A stretch of DNA of 64,000 nt from Nodosilinea sp. E11 (lineage in GTDB: Bacteria; Cyanobacteriota; Cyanobacteriia; Phormidesmidales; Phormidesmidaceae). Location of the stretch: positions 1,358,001 to 1,422,000 of the forward strand of contig NZ_CP136520.1 in assembly GCF_032813545.1 (NCBI RefSeq), read 5' to 3'. A program made the position numbers and the translations under genes. The notes beneath the pieces were generated by a model. The model did no database searches. It worked only from the letters and a program-made list of their open reading frames with translations, and had not been told where the DNA came from. Positions 1,112-10,850 of this stretch are shown here, piece after piece (positions within the stretch are counted from its first letter, which is position 1; each line of letters begins with the position of its first letter).

Positions 1112-4100
1112 ATGACTACTTTTATGTCTGGCGATCGTGATGAGTTTTCAAATATCCATTCAACCGGCTCTGGTACTGATGACGAGCTGTTTTCATTAAA
1201 TTCAGGAGTCATTACTTCTGCATTTGAAGGTATTCGGAGTAGTCTTCATCAGTTAGCGTTATCATCAAATGCTTTTGAAGAGCTCAATCGCATTTTTGAA
1301 ATTACTAATCTTAATGCAGCAGCAACTCGTTTAGAAGGCTGGGCTGAAGGGGTATTTTCAGATCTGCCTGATATTTCAGTATTGAGTGATGAGGTCTTGG
1401 GGGGTGCTTTAGGCGCTTATTCTGCAGATCGAAACACTATTTATTTGGCAGAATCTCTGATGCACCCTGACAGTTTGACAGGGCTCACTAGGGTGCTGCT
1501 AGAGGAGTATGGACATGCCTTAGATCAGCAGTTTAATTCCGGTGGAGATACTGCTGGTGACGAAGGTGAGTTATTTAGCATGACTGTTTTAGGTGAAGCA
1601 ATCAATGCAGAAGACTTGGGCAGGATACGAGCTGAGAACGACTGGGGGCTATTAAATCTCGATGGCACGTCCCTACTAGTAGAATTTGACAATTCCCTGA
1701 GCACCGCTGTTAATCTTGGCACCTTGAGCGGCAGTCGATCGTTGTCTGGGTTTGTTGGCAGTACCGATCCTAACGATTACTACCGCTTTAATTTGACTGC
1801 ACCAGGTGATTTCAGACTAACTCTCAACGGCCTAAGTGCAGATGCTGATGTGCAATTGCTTAATAGCTCTGGCAGCGTGATCCAGAGCTCTACAGCCAGT
1901 GGCACTACTCCAGAACTCATTACCAGAAACTTAAGTGCTGGCACCTATTACGCAAGAGTTTTTCCATTTAGTGGAGACACCAACTATAACTTGAGTTTGA
2001 CAATCGACCAAGCTGGTAATAGCTTAGGGACCGCCCGCAACATTGGCAATCTGAGTGGTACGCGAACTTATACCGACTTTGTTGGCAGTACCGATCCTAA
2101 CGATTACTACCGCTTTAATTTAACTGCACCAGGTGATTTCCAACTAACTCTCAATGGCCTAAGTGCAGATGCTGATGTGCAATTGCTTAACAGCTCTGGC
2201 AGCGTGATCCAGAGCTCTACAGCCAGTGGCACTACTCCAGAACTCATTACCAGAAACTTAAGTGCTGGCACCTATTACGCAAGAGTTCTTCCATTTAGTG
2301 GAGACACCAACTATAACTTAAGTTTGACAATCGACCAAGCGGGTAATAGCTTAGGAACCGCCCGCAACATTGGCAATCTGAGGGGTACGCGAACTTATAC
2401 TGACTTTGTTGGCAGTACCGATCCTAACGATTACTACCGCTTTAATTTAACTGCACCAGGTGATTTCCAACTAACTCTCAACGGCCTAAGTGCAGATGCT
2501 GATGTGCAATTGCTTAATAGCTCTGGCAGCGTGATCCAGAGCTCTACAGCCAGTGGCACTACTCCAGAACTCATTACCAGAAACTTAAGTGCTGGCACCT
2601 ATTACGCAAGAGTTCTTCCATTTAATGGAGACACCAACTATAACTTAAGTTTGACGATCGACCAAGCTGGTAATAGCTTAGGAACCGCCCGCAACATTGG
2701 CAATCTGAGTGGTACGCGAACTTATACTGATTTTGTTGGCAATACCGATCCTAACGATTACTACCGCTTTAGCCTTAGTTCTCTGAGCAACTTTAACGCC
2801 TCATTGACTGGGCTGAGTGCTAATGCTGACATCCGACTAATTCAAGATGTAAATAACAACGGTATTGTGGACAGTGGAGATGTGCTGACATCTTCCACTA
2901 GAGGTGGAAACGCTAACGATGCGCTTAATGTAGCGCGACTAGGGCCAGGCAATTACTTTGTCAATGTTAGCCAATTTTCTGGCAACACTAACTATACCCT
3001 TAGGCTCTCTACAACCCCTCCTTCACCCTCAACGACACCAAGTAATCTATTGCCTGTTGAAGTTAATCTAGGAGCGTTGAGCAGTGCTACTAGCACTCGT
3101 ACAGGTGCCATAGGAGACCTCAATACTTCTGATATTTACGCCTTTACCGTGGGGGCAAACAGCAACTTAAACGCCGTACTAACGGGTGTAGGCCCCTACG
3201 CCGATGTTGATATTCGGCTACTGCGCGATCTAAATGGTAATGGTATTGTAGATGCGGGCGAAGAAATTGCTCGCTCACAGCGGGGTGGGTCTGCAAATGA
3301 AGCCATTAACTTGGGCGCTTTATCTGCAGGTGCCTACTTCATGCAGGTCTACCAATACAGCGGCAATAGCAACTATACTCTCAGCCTTGACACCAGTCTG
3401 CCTAGCAACTTCTTGACTCGTGAAACTGAAATTGGGCCTGTGGGGCTAAATACCCAAACGTTTACTGGTAATGTCAGTGCCAGTAACACGACTCAGCTCT
3501 ATCGATTCAATCTCAATACACCAAGCACACTAAATGCCTCTCTAACGGGCTTAACATCTGATGTAGACATTCGCTTAATTCGGGATGCTAACAACAACGG
3601 GATTGTAGATGCGGGGGAAGAAATTGCTCGTTCACAGTTGGCTGGTTCGGCATCAGAATTGATTAGCCGGAGCTTGGCCGCCGGAGTTTACTACATGCAG
3701 GTCTACCGCTATAGCGGTGCCAGCGACTACAGCTTAGCGCTCAATGCAACACCGCCCGATCGTGCTGGTAATACCCTTGGCACCGCACGAGCGATTACAG
3801 TTGGTGCCACACCATCTGTGTTTAATGACTTTGTCGGGAGTGCAGATACCAATGACTACTACCGATTTACCCTTGGCAGTGCGGCCAATCTGAATCTAGC
3901 GCTGACAGGGCTGACAGCCGATGCTGACATTGCTCTACTGAACAGCTCTGGCACTATCATCACGAGTTCTACCCGAAGTGGCACGAATGATGATGCCATC
4001 AACTACGCCTTAAATGCTGGCACCTACTATGTACGGGTCTATCCCTTCAGCGGTAATAATACCAATTATCGCCTGCTGCTATCGACCACACCAATTGCCC

Positions 4101-5788
4101 CAACAAGCACGCCCAGTAACCTATTGCCGACAGAGACGAATATTGGCACCTTAGGATCATCGGTAGTCAGCTATTCTGGTACGGTAGGAAGCACAAATAC
4201 GTCAGACGTCTATCGGTTTGTTTTAGGTGCACCCAATAGTCCTTTAAACTTGCAGCTCACCGGCGTCAGTGGCGGATTTCCTAATGACATTGATTTGCGC
4301 TTAATCAGAGATGCAAATAATAATGGCATTGTTGATGCTGGCGATGAATTAGCTCGTTCTACTGCCGGAGTGGGCGGCAGTGAGTCAATTAGTCTATCTG
4401 GTTTGGGCGCAGGTGCCTATTTTGCCCAAGTTTATCAATATAACGGGAGCAGTAATTACACCCTAAGTCTGTTTGGGGGTGCCGGCACCCGAACGGAGCG
4501 TGGGACTTTAGGCGCAGATTCGTTTACCTATGTTCCAGGCTATAGCCGCAGCGTCTTTTTAGGCAATGGCAATGTTGATTATCAAACAGGGGCTCGGGAT
4601 GAGCTCGTTTTCTCGGACATCTCCTCAACTTCAGTAGTGTTTAACTACGCCAATACTGGCACAGGTGGAGTTATTTACAATCCCGGTAACGGCAACCGTG
4701 TCTTCGATGCGTTGACACTATCTAATGGAGCTCGAGTTCTATTCGAGGGGATTGAGCGGTTACGGTTTGCAGATCGCACCATCAACCTATCAGTTACCCC
4801 TAACGACCCCCTCTTTAACAATCAGTGGAACTTACACATGATGGGGGTTCACAACGCCTGGCGATTTACTACCGGTTCGAGCAATGTGCAAATTGGGGTG
4901 CAAGACACCGGTTTAGGGGTAGACGCTAACAATGCGATTCACCCCGATCTGCGATCGACAACCATCTACCCCAACAACTACCAAGATGACTTCTACCGCA
5001 ACTTTACAGGGCCAGGGTTTGGGCCCAAGGCCACTTCCCATGGCACCCCTGTTCAAGGCATTATTGCCGCAGCCACGAATAATGGCGTGGGGATGAGCGG
5101 CATCAACTGGAACTCTCCTGTCATCCATATCGATGTGCTGGATGGCAATGCGTTTGACCAATCGTATGCAGAGGCAGCTCAAAATATGATCAATGTAGCA
5201 ACTCAAGCTGGTCGGCGGTTGGTGATTAATATGAGCTTGAGCGGCGGTGGCGGTACGGCTTTTGAGCAACTGATTGCTGCCAACCCCAATGTGTTGTTTG
5301 TGATTGCTTCTGGTAATGACAACATCAGTTCTATTTCTTACCCATCGAGGCTTGCCAGCCAGTTTACAAATGTCATGGCAATCGGCGCTTCCTGGGGCAG
5401 AAGGGATACCTACGGCAATTCAGTCACACCAGGCAGCCGGATTTCCTATCCAGGGTGGTGGGGTTCTAACTATGGCACTGGCTTAACCCTCATGGGGCCA
5501 TCGGAGGTGACGGCTACCACTGCAACTCGCAGTGCTACGGGGGCTGTCACGTTTGGTTATACAACTAGCTTTAATGGCACCTCTGCCGCTACGCCAGATG
5601 TTACAGGTGTGGCATCCCTCGTCTGGAGTGCTAACCAAAACCTGACGGCCACCCAGGTTCGTAATATTCTTTCCCAAACTGCTTACGATCTGGGCACTCC
5701 AGGATATGACACAGTTTATGGCAATGGGTTTGTCAATGCAGACGCCGCCGTTAGGCGGGCCATGGCTACCGCTCGAGGTGTTGCCTAA
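1112..5788 (+). CDS. Large secreted-type subtilisin-family (S8) protease with tandem PPC domains
   Basis: A 1558-residue protein predicted to be an exported serine protease. Residues 1-190 contain a degenerate zinc-metallopeptidase-like segment (LLEEYGHALD) seen in cyanobacterial calcium-binding surface proteins. About eight bacterial pre-peptidase C-terminal (PPC) domains follow, roughly residues 190-1120, with the repeated motif DPNDYYRF. Several carry EF-hand/dockerin-like loops such as DANNNGIVDAG that probably bind calcium. After a linker domain, the S8 catalytic domain occupies about residues 1240-1550. Its triad is D1265 (in DTG), H1310 (in SHGT) and S1491 (in GTSAAT), with oxyanion Asn N1402 (in SGND). 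The start has a strong GGAGGG site 5 nt upstream. There is no classical signal peptide, so export may be by another route. The catalytic domain lies C-terminal to the PPC array, the reverse of the common order. Base composition is more AT-rich than most of the window. Confidence 0.92.
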   Translation: MTTFMSGDRDEFSNIHSTGSGTDDELFSLNSGVITSAFEGIRSSLHQLALSSNAFEELNRIFEITNLNAAATRLEGWAEGVFSDLPDISVLSDEVLGGALGAYSADRNTIYLAESLMHPDSLTGLTRVLLEEYGHALDQQFNSGGDTAGDEGELFSMTVLGEAINAEDLGRIRAENDWGLLNLDGTSLLVEFDNSLSTAVNLGTLSGSRSLSGFVGSTDPNDYYRFNLTAPGDFRLTLNGLSADADVQLLNSSGSVIQSSTASGTTPELITRNLSAGTYYARVFPFSGDTNYNLSLTIDQAGNSLGTARNIGNLSGTRTYTDFVGSTDPNDYYRFNLTAPGDFQLTLNGLSADADVQLLNSSGSVIQSSTASGTTPELITRNLSAGTYYARVLPFSGDTNYNLSLTIDQAGNSLGTARNIGNLRGTRTYTDFVGSTDPNDYYRFNLTAPGDFQLTLNGLSADADVQLLNSSGSVIQSSTASGTTPELITRNLSAGTYYARVLPFNGDTNYNLSLTIDQAGNSLGTARNIGNLSGTRTYTDFVGNTDPNDYYRFSLSSLSNFNASLTGLSANADIRLIQDVNNNGIVDSGDVLTSSTRGGNANDALNVARLGPGNYFVNVSQFSGNTNYTLRLSTTPPSPSTTPSNLLPVEVNLGALSSATSTRTGAIGDLNTSDIYAFTVGANSNLNAVLTGVGPYADVDIRLLRDLNGNGIVDAGEEIARSQRGGSANEAINLGALSAGAYFMQVYQYSGNSNYTLSLDTSLPSNFLTRETEIGPVGLNTQTFTGNVSASNTTQLYRFNLNTPSTLNASLTGLTSDVDIRLIRDANNNGIVDAGEEIARSQLAGSASELISRSLAAGVYYMQVYRYSGASDYSLALNATPPDRAGNTLGTARAITVGATPSVFNDFVGSADTNDYYRFTLGSAANLNLALTGLTADADIALLNSSGTIITSSTRSGTNDDAINYALNAGTYYVRVYPFSGNNTNYRLLLSTTPIAPTSTPSNLLPTETNIGTLGSSVVSYSGTVGSTNTSDVYRFVLGAPNSPLNLQLTGVSGGFPNDIDLRLIRDANNNGIVDAGDELARSTAGVGGSESISLSGLGAGAYFAQVYQYNGSSNYTLSLFGGAGTRTERGTLGADSFTYVPGYSRSVFLGNGNVDYQTGARDELVFSDISSTSVVFNYANTGTGGVIYNPGNGNRVFDALTLSNGARVLFEGIERLRFADRTINLSVTPNDPLFNNQWNLHMMGVHNAWRFTTGSSNVQIGVQDTGLGVDANNAIHPDLRSTTIYPNNYQDDFYRNFTGPGFGPKATSHGTPVQGIIAAATNNGVGMSGINWNSPVIHIDVLDGNAFDQSYAEAAQNMINVATQAGRRLVINMSLSGGGGTAFEQLIAANPNVLFVIASGNDNISSISYPSRLASQFTNVMAIGASWGRRDTYGNSVTPGSRISYPGWWGSNYGTGLTLMGPSEVTATTATRSATGAVTFGYTTSFNGTSAATPDVTGVASLVWSANQNLTATQVRNILSQTAYDLGTPGYDTVYGNGFVNADAAVRRAMATARGVA
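1684..2775 (+). repeat. Tandem 327-bp coding repeats (PPC modules)
   Basis: The phase markers at 2011, 2338 and 2665 (AGCTGGTAAT or AGCGGGTAAT) are exactly 327 bp (109 codons) apart. A first partial copy starts near 1684, and copy four diverges after about 2775. Within the array the DNA, not only the protein, is nearly identical, with a handful of substitutions per copy. This indicates recent duplication or gene conversion. Confidence 0.85.
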
Positions 5789-5900: not shown

Positions 5901-6446
5901 ATGCAATGGTTAAGAGTTAGTTTATTGACAGCCATAGCAGTAAGTTTGAGTAGCTGTAGTTCTCTCGATTCTGTCGTGCCATCTGAGCCCCAACCAATTA
6001 CACCCTCTCCAGCAGCTTCTATGACTTCAAACATTCCTTTTCAGATACTTGACTTTGGCCAAACACCACTGGAAGAGCGGTTTGTACCTGAGCCTCAGGC
6101 CTTTGTCTTTTCCAGCACTTCGGATTGGAAAGACTTCTGGCAAAGCAGCACTGTTCTAGATCTAAATTTGCAAAAGCCGCCGGCTCCTAGCGTTGACTTT
6201 CAACAGCAAACGATTGTTGGAATTACTTCAGGATCCCGTACCACTGGAGGCTACGGCATCCACATCGATCGTATAGAGCCCAATCTTCAAGGCAATCGAT
6301 GGATCATACATTACACAGAATCGGTTCCAGCTCACAACTGCGTGTTAACCCAAGAACCTACGACACCAAGTGTGTTTATCACAGTTAAGCCACCAGTGCC
6401 GCCCCTTGAACTGCAAGGACAAACCATAGTCAACGAGTCCTGTTAA
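5901..6446 (+). CDS. PrcB-domain lipoprotein
   Basis: A 181-residue protein with a lipoprotein signal: hydrophobic residues 4-16 and lipobox LSSC with Cys19, so it should be lipid-anchored at a membrane. Residues ~110-165 match the PrcB C-terminal domain family, with the hallmark GSRTTGGYGIHI followed by a hydrophobic strand and a VPAHNCVLTQ turn. PrcB is known as an accessory lipoprotein of the Treponema dentilisin protease complex, whose catalytic subunit PrtP is subtilisin-like. Here the gene lies 112 bp downstream of a subtilisin-family protease in the same direction, separated by a hairpin. A role in processing or anchoring that protease is inference. Standalone PrcB-domain lipoproteins also exist. 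Confidence 0.8.
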   Translation: MQWLRVSLLTAIAVSLSSCSSLDSVVPSEPQPITPSPAASMTSNIPFQILDFGQTPLEERFVPEPQAFVFSSTSDWKDFWQSSTVLDLNLQKPPAPSVDFQQQTIVGITSGSRTTGGYGIHIDRIEPNLQGNRWIIHYTESVPAHNCVLTQEPTTPSVFITVKPPVPPLELQGQTIVNESC

Positions 6447-6583: not shown

Positions 6584-6691
6584 ATGGCCAAAATCGTTAG
6601 TCGCCAGTCTTTGGGAGTGCAGCCCGTCTACGACATCGGGGTGGCCCACAACCACAACTTTTTGCTGGCCGATGGTCAGGTGGCCGCTAAC
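6584..6691 (+). other. C-terminal half (IntC) of the split DnaE intein
   Basis: The first 36 codons encode the IntC segment. It has the family features SLGVQPVYDIGV, the HNF block (H24-N25-F26) and the terminal Asn36, followed by the +1 residue Cys37 of the extein sequence CFN. In cyanobacteria IntC associates with IntN, encoded at the end of a separate dnaE-N gene, and ligates the two DnaE halves. The three residues before HNF are A-H-N; known DnaE inteins carry an acidic Asp directly before HNF. Confidence 0.95.
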
Positions 6692-7936
6692 TGCTTCAAC
6701 AAGTCGCACTCTACCGCCTACGGGTTTGTCACCTTTCAGACGGCCTACCTGAAGGCCAACTACCCCGTCGAGTACATGGCGGCGCTGCTGACCTCCAACA
6801 GCGGCGACCAAGACAAGGTGCAGATGCACATCGGCAACTGCATCGCCATGGGCATTGAGGTGCTGCCGCCGGATATCAACCGATCGCTGGTCGATTTCAC
6901 CCCCGAGGACAAGAGTATTTTGTTTGGTCTCTCGGCGGTGCGCAACGTGGGTTTGGGGGCGATCGAATGCATTCTCAAGCACCGCGAAGCAGAGGGGCCG
7001 TTTAACTCGCTAGCCGAACTGTGCGATCGCGTCGATCTGCATTCCGTCAACCGCCGTGCCTTAGAATCACTGATTCTCAGTGGCGCGCTCGACCCCATCG
7101 ACCCCAACCGCAACCAGCTAATGCAGGATCTGGGTCTGGTAATCGAGTGGGCCCAAAGTCGCGCCAAGGATCGCGAAATCGGCCAGGGCAACCTGTTCGA
7201 CATGATGATGGGGGGCGGCGATACCCAGGCCGCATCTCCAACCAGTGGCTATGAAACCGCGCCCAAAGCACCCCTGGTGGCCGACTTTGAAGCCCAAGAA
7301 AAGCTGCGCCAGGAGAAAGAGCTGCTGGGTTTCTACATTTCTGATCACCCGCTCAAGTCGGTGCAGCGATCGGCGCGGGTGCTGGCCCCGATTAACCTGG
7401 CAGAGCTGCACGAGCAGCCCGATAACGTGACCCTGAGCGCGATCGTGATTTTGGCTAGCGTGAAGCCGGTGATCACCAAAAAGGGAGACCGGATGGCGAT
7501 CGTGCAGCTCGAAGATTTGACGGGGCAATCCGAAGCCGTCGTTTTCCCCAAGTCTTTTGAGCGCATTGGCCAGCACATCGTCGCTGACAAACGGCTGATG
7601 ATCTGGGGCAAGGTCGATCGCCGCGACGATCGCGTGCAGTTCATCATTGACGATGCCGAATCGATTGAAGACGTGCGCATGGTGATGGTCGAGCTAGACC
7701 CACGCCTGGCGGGCGACATTGAGCAGCAGCACCGCCTGCGCAACGTGATTCGCAACAACCAGGGCGACGACCCCAAGTACGCGCGGGTACCCGTGATCGC
7801 GGTGATTGGCGGTAACCAGCAGCGGCAGTTTGTGCGGCTGGGGGCACAGTTTCGTGTCAAAGACCCCGAGGCAGCGGTAACGGCCTTGGTAAATGCCAAT
7901 TTTCAGGCCAAGGCAACGCCGCTGATCAGCGCGTGA
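6584..7936 (+). CDS. dnaE: DNA polymerase III alpha subunit, C-terminal half with split intein (DnaE-C)
   Basis: A 450-residue precursor. Residues 1-36 are the split-intein C-half and the extein begins CFNKSHSTAYG at residue 37. The extein continues with the end of the polymerase domain, a helix-hairpin-helix region near residues 115-175 (RNVGLGAIE, LILSGALD) and an OB-fold from about residue 283 (KKGDRMAIVQLEDLTG) that contacts single-stranded DNA. A tail resembling the tau-binding region follows. Trans-splicing with the N-terminal half, which is not in this window, makes the full replicative polymerase. The ATG has GAGG 9 nt upstream. The length fits the C-half precursors of other cyanobacteria. 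The gene stands alone, so it is expressed separately from its partner. Confidence 0.96.
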   Translation: MAKIVSRQSLGVQPVYDIGVAHNHNFLLADGQVAANCFNKSHSTAYGFVTFQTAYLKANYPVEYMAALLTSNSGDQDKVQMHIGNCIAMGIEVLPPDINRSLVDFTPEDKSILFGLSAVRNVGLGAIECILKHREAEGPFNSLAELCDRVDLHSVNRRALESLILSGALDPIDPNRNQLMQDLGLVIEWAQSRAKDREIGQGNLFDMMMGGGDTQAASPTSGYETAPKAPLVADFEAQEKLRQEKELLGFYISDHPLKSVQRSARVLAPINLAELHEQPDNVTLSAIVILASVKPVITKKGDRMAIVQLEDLTGQSEAVVFPKSFERIGQHIVADKRLMIWGKVDRRDDRVQFIIDDAESIEDVRMVMVELDPRLAGDIEQQHRLRNVIRNNQGDDPKYARVPVIAVIGGNQQRQFVRLGAQFRVKDPEAAVTALVNANFQAKATPLISA

Positions 7937-8088: not shown

Positions 8089-8874
8089 TTATTCATTGAG
8101 ACTTGACCGATCGCCATCGCCGCAGTGCTCGTTGTTGATGTCGCCATTGGCCATGCGGGTATTGCAAAAGCGGGCGGTGCTGAGGTCGGTGCGGGTCAAC
8201 CGGGCTCGCAGTAGGTCGGCATTGGTCAGGTCAACACCGGCTAACGACGCATCCCGAATCAGGGCTTCGCGCAGGTCAGCGCCCGTCAGATCGGCTCCGT
8301 CTAGGCGAGCGCCGATGAGGTCGGCACGATAAAATTGGCCGTTGGTGAGGCTGGCATTGGTCAGGTCGGTGTTCGATAGGCTGGCCTGGGCGAAGGTGGC
8401 CCCGTCTAAGCGACTGCCGCTGAGATCGCTACCGTACCAATTGCTGCTGCGGGCCTCGGCGTTCTCTAGGTTGACGTTGGCGGCATTTACCTCCACCAGG
8501 CGGGCTTGGGTGAGAATAGCCCCGCTCAGGTTGGCCTCAGCCAGGTTGGCCCGCGAGAGATCGGCCTCGCTCAGCACAGCCTGGGACAGATTGGCTCGTC
8601 CCAGATCGGTTTGGGTCATCTGCGCCCTGGGCAATCGGGCCTGGCGCAGGTTGGCTCCGGCCAGGGTAGCGTTGGTCAGATCGGCATTGTCGAGATTAGC
8701 CCGAGACAGCACGGCCCCACTGAGGTCGCAGGCTATACAGTTGCGGCTAATCAAAAACTGCCGGAGCTGGTCGTTGGCGGCCCCCGGCGCTGCCATCAGC
8801 CCCAAACCAGCTACCAGACCAATGGCCAGCTGGCTTCGGTTCAGGCTCCGACGGGTTTGGGTGCAGCGTGCCAT
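8089..8874 (-). CDS. Exported pentapeptide-repeat protein
   Basis: A 261-residue protein. Residues 1-33 look like a signal peptide: Arg-rich start, hydrophobic stretch IGLVAGLGLMAA, then APGAA-ND as a likely cleavage zone. The mature part starts with a short segment containing a CxxC pair (NCIAC). An almost unbroken series of A(D/N)LxX pentapeptides follows to about residue 245, predicting a right-handed quadrilateral beta-helix. Cyanobacteria encode many such proteins, often in the periplasm or thylakoid lumen, and mostly without known function. The gene is convergent with dnaE-C and divergent from the gene at 9042. The long frames on the opposite strand are by-products of its repetitive codons. 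Confidence 0.85.
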   Translation of the reverse strand: MARCTQTRRSLNRSQLAIGLVAGLGLMAAPGAANDQLRQFLISRNCIACDLSGAVLSRANLDNADLTNATLAGANLRQARLPRAQMTQTDLGRANLSQAVLSEADLSRANLAEANLSGAILTQARLVEVNAANVNLENAEARSSNWYGSDLSGSRLDGATFAQASLSNTDLTNASLTNGQFYRADLIGARLDGADLTGADLREALIRDASLAGVDLTNADLLRARLTRTDLSTARFCNTRMANGDINNEHCGDGDRSSLNE

Positions 8875-9041: not shown

Positions 9042-10850
9042 ATGGCATCTACACCGGCATCTTCGCCCCTTAGTTCTCGGCGACGGCAACTACCTAGGTC
9101 AAACCGCCAGGTCAAGCCGTGGGAATGGGTGTGGCTCACTCTGTGGGTGCTTTTGCTGACTGGGTCAGGGGTGTTTTGCGGCTGGGCGCTGATGTGGCTA
9201 ACCCGAATTCCGCCGCTGCCCGACTGTGAGCAAATTACCCCGTTTCACTCGTCGAGTGACCTGCTCTACTGTGCCAAGGCCCAAGCCCGCACCGGGGAAC
9301 CCAACAGCTTGGTGCAGTCGGTGCTGCTGACGGCCAACTGGTCCAAAACCCATTCCCAGTACGAAGAGTCTCAAGAAATTTTGACCGATGCTTCGGAGCA
9401 GCTCTTGGTGCTGGCTAACCGCTGGGCTCAGGCAGGCAAGCTCGACGACGCCGTGGCGCTAGCCGAAAAAATCCCCCTCGATACCCCCCTGAGGAATCCT
9501 GCCCAGGCGGTCATTTTTGAGTGGCGACAAGACTGGCAGCAGGGCCAGGCGATTGAAGCCAAACTCAGGCCCGCTCTGGCCGCCAGCGACTGGGAACTCG
9601 CGAGAGGGTATCTACAAGAATTCAAAACCCTCAAGAGCGACTACTGGCTGGACACCCGCTACCTGCGCTGGCAGCGGCAGCTTCAGATCGAACGGCAGGC
9701 CTGGGATCAGCTCTTGCAGGCCCGCGCCTTGGCAGGCACTAACCAGATCGACAATTTGGCTCAGGCAGTGGTGCTGGCGCGATCGATCGACCTGCGCAGC
9801 CAGGTATGGCAGGCCGCCGAAAACGATGTCGATCGCTGGAGCAAGACCGTTTTAGATGTCGCCCTCCAGCGCTGGCAGGTGGGCAATCGCACCAGTGCCC
9901 TAGAGCTGGCTAGCGTTGTCCCCCCCGGCCCCCAGTGGGCAGGAGCCGACCAGGAGCTGCTGCACCTCAGCCACGCCCAGCGCCTGGCCAGCCAGGCCGA
10001 ACCTACGGGCGAGGGGTTGGCCCCCCGCTATAGCCATCTGTTTAGTCTGATGGAAGCCACCCATGCGATCGCACAGCTGCCGGAGGGCAGTCCTTACGCA
10101 GTGGCGGAGCTAACCCCAGCAGAGCAGTGGCAAGAACAGTTGATCGATCTCAGGCGGCTGAAGTTTAGCGACCTTGTTGCCAGACTAGGGCAGCGCCTTA
10201 CCTACAACTGGGCCATGTATCAGGCCCAGCAGGTAGAGGTAGATCGCCCCCGGCGCATTCAGGGCCAAACCCTAGTCGCTCAGTGGCAGGCTAACATTCA
10301 GCGGATTGAAGACCGGCCCGTTTTGGCTGAAGCCCGCAATCTGGCCCGACCGGGCACTATTCCTGCCCTCGAAACGGCGATCGCCAAGGCCGAAGAGATT
10401 GAGCTAGGGAGAGCCCTGCGAGTAGAGGCTCAAACCCTGGTAGCTGGGTGGCAACAAGAAATTCAGGTGATCGAAGACCGACCGATTCTCGATGCCGCCG
10501 TGGCGCTGGCCGATGACGGGAATTTGCGCGAGGCGATCAGCGAAGCCCTCAAAATTGCCCCTGGCCGTGCCCTTCACAGCCGCGCCCAGGGGCTAGTAGA
10601 CGAGTGGACGGCGTCGATTCAAATTGCTGAAGACAAGCCGATTCTCGATCGCGCCAAGAATCTGGCCTACAGTGGCAGCCTGTCGGCGGCGATCAACCTG
10701 GCGGGCCAGATTGCGTCGGGTCGGGCGCTGTCGGGAGAAGCCCAAGCGGCGATCGCCCTTTGGAAAGCCGAGCGCGCCTATATCTGGTCGATTTGGGAGG
10801 CCGAGGGTAGGCCCACTCCCGGCGGATCTTCGACAGCAGACTCAGAATGA
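9042..10850 (+). CDS. Membrane-anchored helical-repeat protein of unknown function
   Basis: A 602-residue protein. One transmembrane segment lies near residues 30-52, after a basic N-terminus, so most of the chain is probably outside the cytoplasm. The rest is alpha-helical and rich in Trp, Gln and Ala. Residues ~408-575 hold three successive ~53-residue units with the pattern AQxLVxxW, (I/A)ED(R/K)P(I/V)L, an LA-(x)-G turn, and GRAL. These look like TPR-type or similar hairpin repeats. Its last four bases overlap the start of the receiver-DUF3685 gene (ATGA), so the two are almost certainly cotranscribed and may act together. I do not recognise an enzyme domain. Confidence 0.75.
   Translation: MASTPASSPLSSRRRQLPRSNRQVKPWEWVWLTLWVLLLTGSGVFCGWALMWLTRIPPLPDCEQITPFHSSSDLLYCAKAQARTGEPNSLVQSVLLTANWSKTHSQYEESQEILTDASEQLLVLANRWAQAGKLDDAVALAEKIPLDTPLRNPAQAVIFEWRQDWQQGQAIEAKLRPALAASDWELARGYLQEFKTLKSDYWLDTRYLRWQRQLQIERQAWDQLLQARALAGTNQIDNLAQAVVLARSIDLRSQVWQAAENDVDRWSKTVLDVALQRWQVGNRTSALELASVVPPGPQWAGADQELLHLSHAQRLASQAEPTGEGLAPRYSHLFSLMEATHAIAQLPEGSPYAVAELTPAEQWQEQLIDLRRLKFSDLVARLGQRLTYNWAMYQAQQVEVDRPRRIQGQTLVAQWQANIQRIEDRPVLAEARNLARPGTIPALETAIAKAEEIELGRALRVEAQTLVAGWQQEIQVIEDRPILDAAVALADDGNLREAISEALKIAPGRALHSRAQGLVDEWTASIQIAEDKPILDRAKNLAYSGSLSAAINLAGQIASGRALSGEAQAAIALWKAERAYIWSIWEAEGRPTPGGSSTADSE

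Follow-up and report, generated by a model that had tools for sequence, protein, structure and literature searches.

A split DnaE intein with a private loop variant in Nodosilinea, and a possible origin of its split from a mobile three-gene unit

The naturally split DnaE inteins of cyanobacteria supplied the Npu and Cfa tools and are widely used in biotechnology. Their split is said to have been traced by Caspi et al., in 2003, to one ancestral rearrangement, and the loop that concerns us here reportedly tunes extein tolerance, according to Stevens et al. in 2017. A related arrangement is that of the fractured genes, reportedly described by Dassa et al. in 2009, in which a split intein has a free-standing endonuclease, of a family other than LAGLIDADG, between its two halves. 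We compared with these systems a stretch of 64,000 nucleotides from Nodosilinea sp. E11 (the window). Its intein shares with the Ssp and Npu DnaE split inteins, whose C-halves also belong to NF005616, the insertion site, a 36-residue C-terminal half (IntC), Asn36, Cys+1 and a separate dnaE-N gene carrying the N-terminal half (IntN), but it differs from them in having Asn at loop position 23. Several relatives of the window resemble the fractured genes in that a free-standing endonuclease gene lies between their intein halves, although the enzyme of the relatives is of the LAGLIDADG family and the host gene is a chromosomal replicase; unlike the fractured genes, the window's own locus contains no endonuclease.

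The dnaE-C open reading frame (6584-7936, forward strand) starts with ATG and encodes 450 amino acids, of which the N-terminal ones are MAKIVSRQSLGVQPVYDIGVAHNHNFLLADGQVAAN followed directly by CFNK. The IntC occupies 6584..6691 on the forward strand and ends in Asn36; the Cys+1 codon (6692-6694) comes next, and then Phe-Asn. dnaE-C scores 714.5 bits against NCBIfam NF005616, the model of split DnaE C-halves (cut-off 646), and the NCBIfam model intein_Cterm matches its residues 14-37. From Cys+1 onward (6692..7936, forward strand, stop codon included) the frame encodes the C-extein, which is the C-terminal part of DNA polymerase III alpha as identified by NCBIfam and by the Pfam domains HHH_6 and tRNA_anti-codon. 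The IntC thus has a C-terminal intein motif, a terminal Asn and Cys+1, and leads into the DnaE C-half, as do members of this class. Residue 17, which we take to be the catalytic Asp of block F, is Asp in 104 of 104 sampled IntCs, and residue 35 is Ser in 81 of these and Ala in 23, with Ala in the window. The original prediction had described a 36-residue DnaE IntC with A-H-N before HNF, Asn36 and Cys+1, and both the translation and NCBIfam confirm it. Judged by its sequence, 6584-6691 is the C-half of an ordinary, naturally split DnaE intein, and probably of an active one.

The loop A21-H22-N23 (codons GCC CAC AAC, 6644-6652, forward strand) is followed by H24-N25-F26. For a census of this loop we sampled 386 cyanobacterial genomes evenly and used 104 IntCs, namely all those visible in a genome's listed match. 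Of these, 98 have Asp at residue 23, three have Asn, and one each has Val, Glu or Tyr. The original prediction that Asn here replaces a highly conserved Asp is therefore correct; its broader statement, that known members carry Asp directly before HNF, agrees with these 98 and fails for the other six. The three IntCs with Asn23 are those of the window's genome (AHN), G282 (AKN) and G336 (ERN), and beyond this sample Asn23 also occurs in the genus-mate G425 (AQN) and in G476 (EKN). Among 18 other IntCs of the genus, 17 have Asp23 and one, that of G425, has Asn23, while His22 is found in eight (AHD or GHD); the 104-genome sample contains two further His22 loops, both EHD. The six nearest named IntC records, three of them labelled Nodosilinea and with dnaE-C 92-95% identical, are divided equally between AHD and AQD. 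The original prediction would have been weakened by AHN being common in the closest relatives, and as worded this is not what we found: AHD is common, and AHN was seen in one genome only, the window's, among the IntCs examined.

The original prediction had also read His22 as an extra residue. Since the IntC has 36 residues, the same as its relatives, His22 has replaced another residue at a position that varies and does not lengthen the loop, and its presence in 8 of 18 genus-mates likewise rules out the reading as an insertion. At residue 23, the AHN codons are a single base away from those of most AHD relatives (GAC to AAC). Four species of family f11 in which all three genes (dnaE-N, endonuclease and dnaE-C, see below) are open have Asn (G336, G476) or Glu (G039, G457) at this residue, so the site tolerates change. 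Taken together, these comparisons mark A-H-N as a private variant, one base removed from AHD, at a change-tolerant site, which is an ordinary finding and, by itself, of little importance.

A loop that alters splicing rate or extein preference relative to Asp-bearing inteins could be argued for from the near-constancy of Asp23, from the fact that residue 23 adjoins the conserved His24, and from the effect on extein tolerance reported for the loop. Against this, Asn23 recurs (G282, G336, G425, G476) and Glu or Tyr is found elsewhere with all genes open, His22 is frequent in the genus and Asp17 is retained, and we consider such a functional change rather unlikely. Still more improbable, to the point that we give it very little weight, is an error of sequencing or assembly at the Asn codon, with AHD as the true loop: the single transition from GAC and the restriction of AHN to one genome would fit an error, but the assembly consists of 7 contigs for 6.1 Mb, and Asn23 was recovered from other genomes as well. 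The excerpts available of PMC12371501 and of the literature found by searching contain nothing on loop residue 23.

A matching dnaE-N, which the original prediction had proposed to look for, is indeed present as a separate gene with IntN at its end. It lies at G000:C7:1354098-1356698, just left of the window, on the same strand as dnaE-C and 7.9 kb upstream of it. It is the only dnaE-N of the genome, and its IntN is 108 amino acids long with Cys1 and TADH (a TxxH motif, by eye). Because these intein residues are present, the window's IntC is predicted to pair with this upstream IntN and to join the DnaE halves by trans-splicing. The same contig also contains a second, weak intein N-terminal match (G000:C7:4014629-4014865, in a frame of 1127 amino acids, E 2.3e-4). 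Between the two halves are a RelE-like fragment (by eye), XisI, an S8 peptidase with PPC repeats (1112..5788, forward strand, 1558 amino acids, Pfam Peptidase_S8 and PPC) and a protein of 181 amino acids with a PrcB C-terminal domain (5901..6446, forward strand, Pfam PrcB_C). To the right of dnaE-C, a reverse-strand gene (8089..8874) encodes 261 amino acids that resemble pentapeptide repeats by eye and that are 69% identical (tblastn) to the product of a gene right of the intact dnaE in the intein-less congener G416; the next gene (9042..10850, forward strand, 602 amino acids) is 80% identical to its counterpart in G416 by the same method. To the left of dnaE-N, within about 16 kb, tblastn found no match to the neighbours in G416, G418, G428 or G410.

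In 13 of 103 genomes with both halves, dnaE-N precedes dnaE-C on one strand within 10 kb, 12 of these being split and one fused. Three others have the halves within 20 kb with dnaE-C first, 45 have them further apart on one contig, and in 42 they are on different contigs. In the window's family, 9 of the 26 genomes that have both halves carry them in tandem, and the spacers measure about 0.75-7.9 kb. Of the 12 split tandem pairs found across the phylum sample, four have an endonuclease gene in the gap and eight have other, unrelated genes there. Among the unrelated occupants are a gene of the Uma2 family in G011 and, in four genomes of the window's family (L147:5174-5857; G215, G431 and G432), an ORF of 226-228 amino acids that is PD-(D/E)XK-like by eye. 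This ORF, which we considered as a candidate second homing nuclease, matched no Pfam family; it occurs in 6 of 63 genomes of the family, namely in the four gaps, 4 kb after IntN in G411, and elsewhere in G396. The reversed order was seen in G089, G179 and G247 of family f19, where dnaE-N follows, on the same strand, about 14 kb downstream of dnaE-C. The predominance of distant pairs (45 of 103 share a contig but are separated by more than 20 kb, and 42 do not share one), together with the unrelated genes in the gap, would fit a split that came first, by one ancestral rearrangement, with free-standing endonuclease genes invading the gap of tandem halves only later.

The endonuclease gene bears on this question. 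In G399, G336, G354, G039 and G286 the gap consists of one ORF of 252-260 amino acids whose N-terminal part is HTH-like and which contains two LAGLIDADG motifs. All three of the proteins that we compared with Pfam PF14528 matched it (1e-9 to 1e-10 or better), and a profile of the gap endonuclease matched the putative homing endonuclease of PDB 2dch (7.6e-7). The motifs and the profile matches thus place the gene of the relatives in the LAGLIDADG family; a single-sequence structure model had a mean pLDDT of 45.6. The alignment searches scored few candidates per genome, so that remoter copies may be missed, and used overlapping genome samples; with this proviso, 11 of 386 genomes of the phylum sample matched (four full copies and one remnant in the dnaE gap, and six weak matches to the HTH part only), as did 17 of 61 in family f11 (12 full-length copies including two with a stop, plus one interrupted copy and four remnants), 1 of 63 in the window's family, which here is also its order (G399), and 9 of 388 in the class sample. 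Six of these nine are at dnaE (G039, G399, G286, G571, G525 on two contig ends, and G517 as a remnant), two (G508 and G610) show 23-25% identity with no intein alongside, and one (G249) matches in the HTH part only. The remote gene in G508 (L384, G508:C1:4835135-4835938) is an HTH-LAGLIDADG gene with about 25% identity and no dnaE intein near it.

Counting 16 full-length copies (two with a stop and one interrupted), IntN is directly upstream in all 16 and IntC directly downstream in 15, the exception being G448, whose contig ends first. The genomes with an endonuclease in the gap belong to four families (f1, f11, f19 and f29), and among the genomes searched all matches above 50% identity are confined to the dnaE intein gap. 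In this confinement the gap gene differs from the free-standing HTH-LAGLIDADG homing endonucleases of phages and from PDB 2dch, which it otherwise resembles in its LAGLIDADG motifs, in length and in the 2dch profile match. These more distant relatives, found in viral contigs, phages and plasmids, are 23-33% identical; the phage ones have the same domain order, so the gene may have entered later into a gap that was already there, as the split-first reading would have it.

The junctions are regular. The dnaE-N stop is 1 nt before the endonuclease start in eight loci and overlaps it by 25 nt in five, which accounts for 13 of 14 measured loci; in the fourteenth, G486, the endonuclease start is ambiguous. 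The endonuclease and IntC frames share 8 nt, stop over start, in 10 of the 14 loci; G571 has the same junction. Of the four loci without this overlap, two contain premature stops (G471, G480), one a late frame change (G286), and one is cut off by the end of its contig (G448). For the 45 pairs of ten f11 endonuclease copies, one of them with a stop, the NG86 dN/dS ratio is 0.09-0.20, which indicates that the gene is kept by purifying selection in f11. Various stages of decay are also seen: stops in G471 and G480, an interruption in G477, and remnants in G255, G483, G489, G478 and G517. The insertion in G477 (L278:4204-7515) is about 2.5 kb long and contains ORFs that are transposase-like by eye. 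In the window's genome, a profile search found no endonuclease remnant, and there is none in its dnaE loci or the gap between them. A tail pattern like that of the endonuclease precedes IntC in 13 of 13 loci of the endonuclease set and in 2 of the 99 other loci from the phylum sample; these two are G255 and G123, the latter probably by chance. This low frequency does not support such a tail as a general trait of dispersed genomes. The codon GTT at IntC position 2 proved too weak as a fossil of the overlap, being used for 42 of 82 Val codons in other phylum-sample loci.

Within the genus of the window, the neighbours of the tandem split dnaE in G410, left and right, are those of the contiguous, intein-less dnaE of G418, G417 and G415. 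In family f11, the endonuclease-bearing G457, G477 and G354 share both flanks with the intein-less G099, G203 and G195 and, to the extent of its contig, with G464. In the same family a fused form, G157, has both flanks in common with intein-less G262. G286 has no flank in common with the other genomes of this comparison. In G255 the halves are 1.6 Mb apart, with the left flank remaining at dnaE-N and the right flank at dnaE-C, and IntC is directly preceded by about 45 codons, in decay, from the 3′ end of the endonuclease gene. The divided flanks and the remnant of G255 show that, in that lineage, the dispersed form arose from a tandem locus with an endonuclease. The split-first reading, for which the free-standing relatives in phages and plasmids also speak, is difficult to reconcile with G255, with the 8-nt overlap that fits the endonuclease gene to its junction, and with tandem flanks that equal those of intein-less dnaE in two families, because a dispersing rearrangement would not leave these. 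We regard an ancestral rearrangement followed by invasion as the less likely account, though it is the most serious of the competitors considered here.

We favour instead the explanation that the window contains an ordinary split intein with a private A-H-N variant, and that the split is the relic of a mobile three-gene unit, which we hold to be likely, with some reserve. By this explanation, a free-standing HTH-LAGLIDADG gene would have occupied the place between IntN and IntC where inteins canonically carry their endonuclease, and the intein would then have been read as three adjacent ORFs within a dnaE locus that was normal in other respects. The endonuclease would subsequently have been lost, spacer genes would have come and gone, and the chromosome would have broken between the halves, with the tandem form, as in the window, and the dispersed textbook form as the outcomes. 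Split DnaE inteins would thus descend from a mobile unit of IntN, endonuclease and IntC; we infer such a three-ORF origin for cyanobacteria at large, and with it that the window's lineage once passed through the three-gene stage. Against this origin, the endonuclease is found in only 4 of 12 split tandem genomes and 1 of 63 in the window's family and has left no remnant in the window's genome, and the window's right neighbours match intein-less congeners while its left ones, within about 16 kb, do not.

A mobile unit would presumably have moved by homing, including cleavage of intein-less dnaE by the endonuclease, and the trees, all of which are unrooted, are compatible with horizontal movement. 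In the C-extein tree, f11 is one clade (support 100/100). The endonuclease tree, with three copies from outside f11 and some long branches, rejects such a clade (p-AU 0.0156 with 14 rows, 0.0006 with G571 added) and groups G286 with G480 and G448. The grouping of G286 with G480 and G478 is rejected by the C-extein tree (p-AU 0.0002); in the intein tree G286 is beside G480 and G478, with support of only 94/74. A fuller version of our explanation, which we would neither back nor dismiss, is that the split was born in place when the free-standing gene fractured the dnaE intein, that the unit is still homing in some lineages, that the dispersed form is a derived end state reached repeatedly, and that reversion to a fused cis mini-intein can occur, as may have happened in G157.

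If true, an in-place, mobile origin would replace the single-rearrangement account of two-gene, one-protein DnaE that is attributed to Caspi et al. 2003. The tandem, three-gene, decayed, scarred and re-fused loci that occur in nature are material with which to examine such an origin, and they offer a candidate endonuclease dedicated to a conserved dnaE site as well as naturally occurring split-intein pairs with different residues at loop position 23. In the excerpts of the literature that we compared, which leave Dassa et al. 2009 and Caspi et al. 2003 outside, we found no previous report of a dnaE-gap endonuclease or of tandem dnaE halves, so an earlier description is possible; the portions available of PMC7765530, PMC3229294, PMC9403480, PMC6801210, PMC12702839 and PMC7090010 describe neither.

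Several dnaE loci have further peculiarities. The fused gene of G157 (L164:847-5622, on G157:C50) joins IntN and IntC in cis by a few linker residues in one ORF of 1591 amino acids, which also contains a second intein upstream of the fused one. Extra partial copies of the IntN tail are found downstream of dnaE-N at G193:C24:20434-23406 (three copies), G411:C167:9284-9499 and G423:C1:102418-102522. G413 has additional IntN-tail copies at G413:C89:817-1038 and G413:C198:18394-18507, one of them on the contig of dnaE-C. Finally, in two draft genomes IntN is spread over two frames (G414:C245:5795-6239 and G431:C127:12453-12889), which may reflect a real frameshift or an assembly error.
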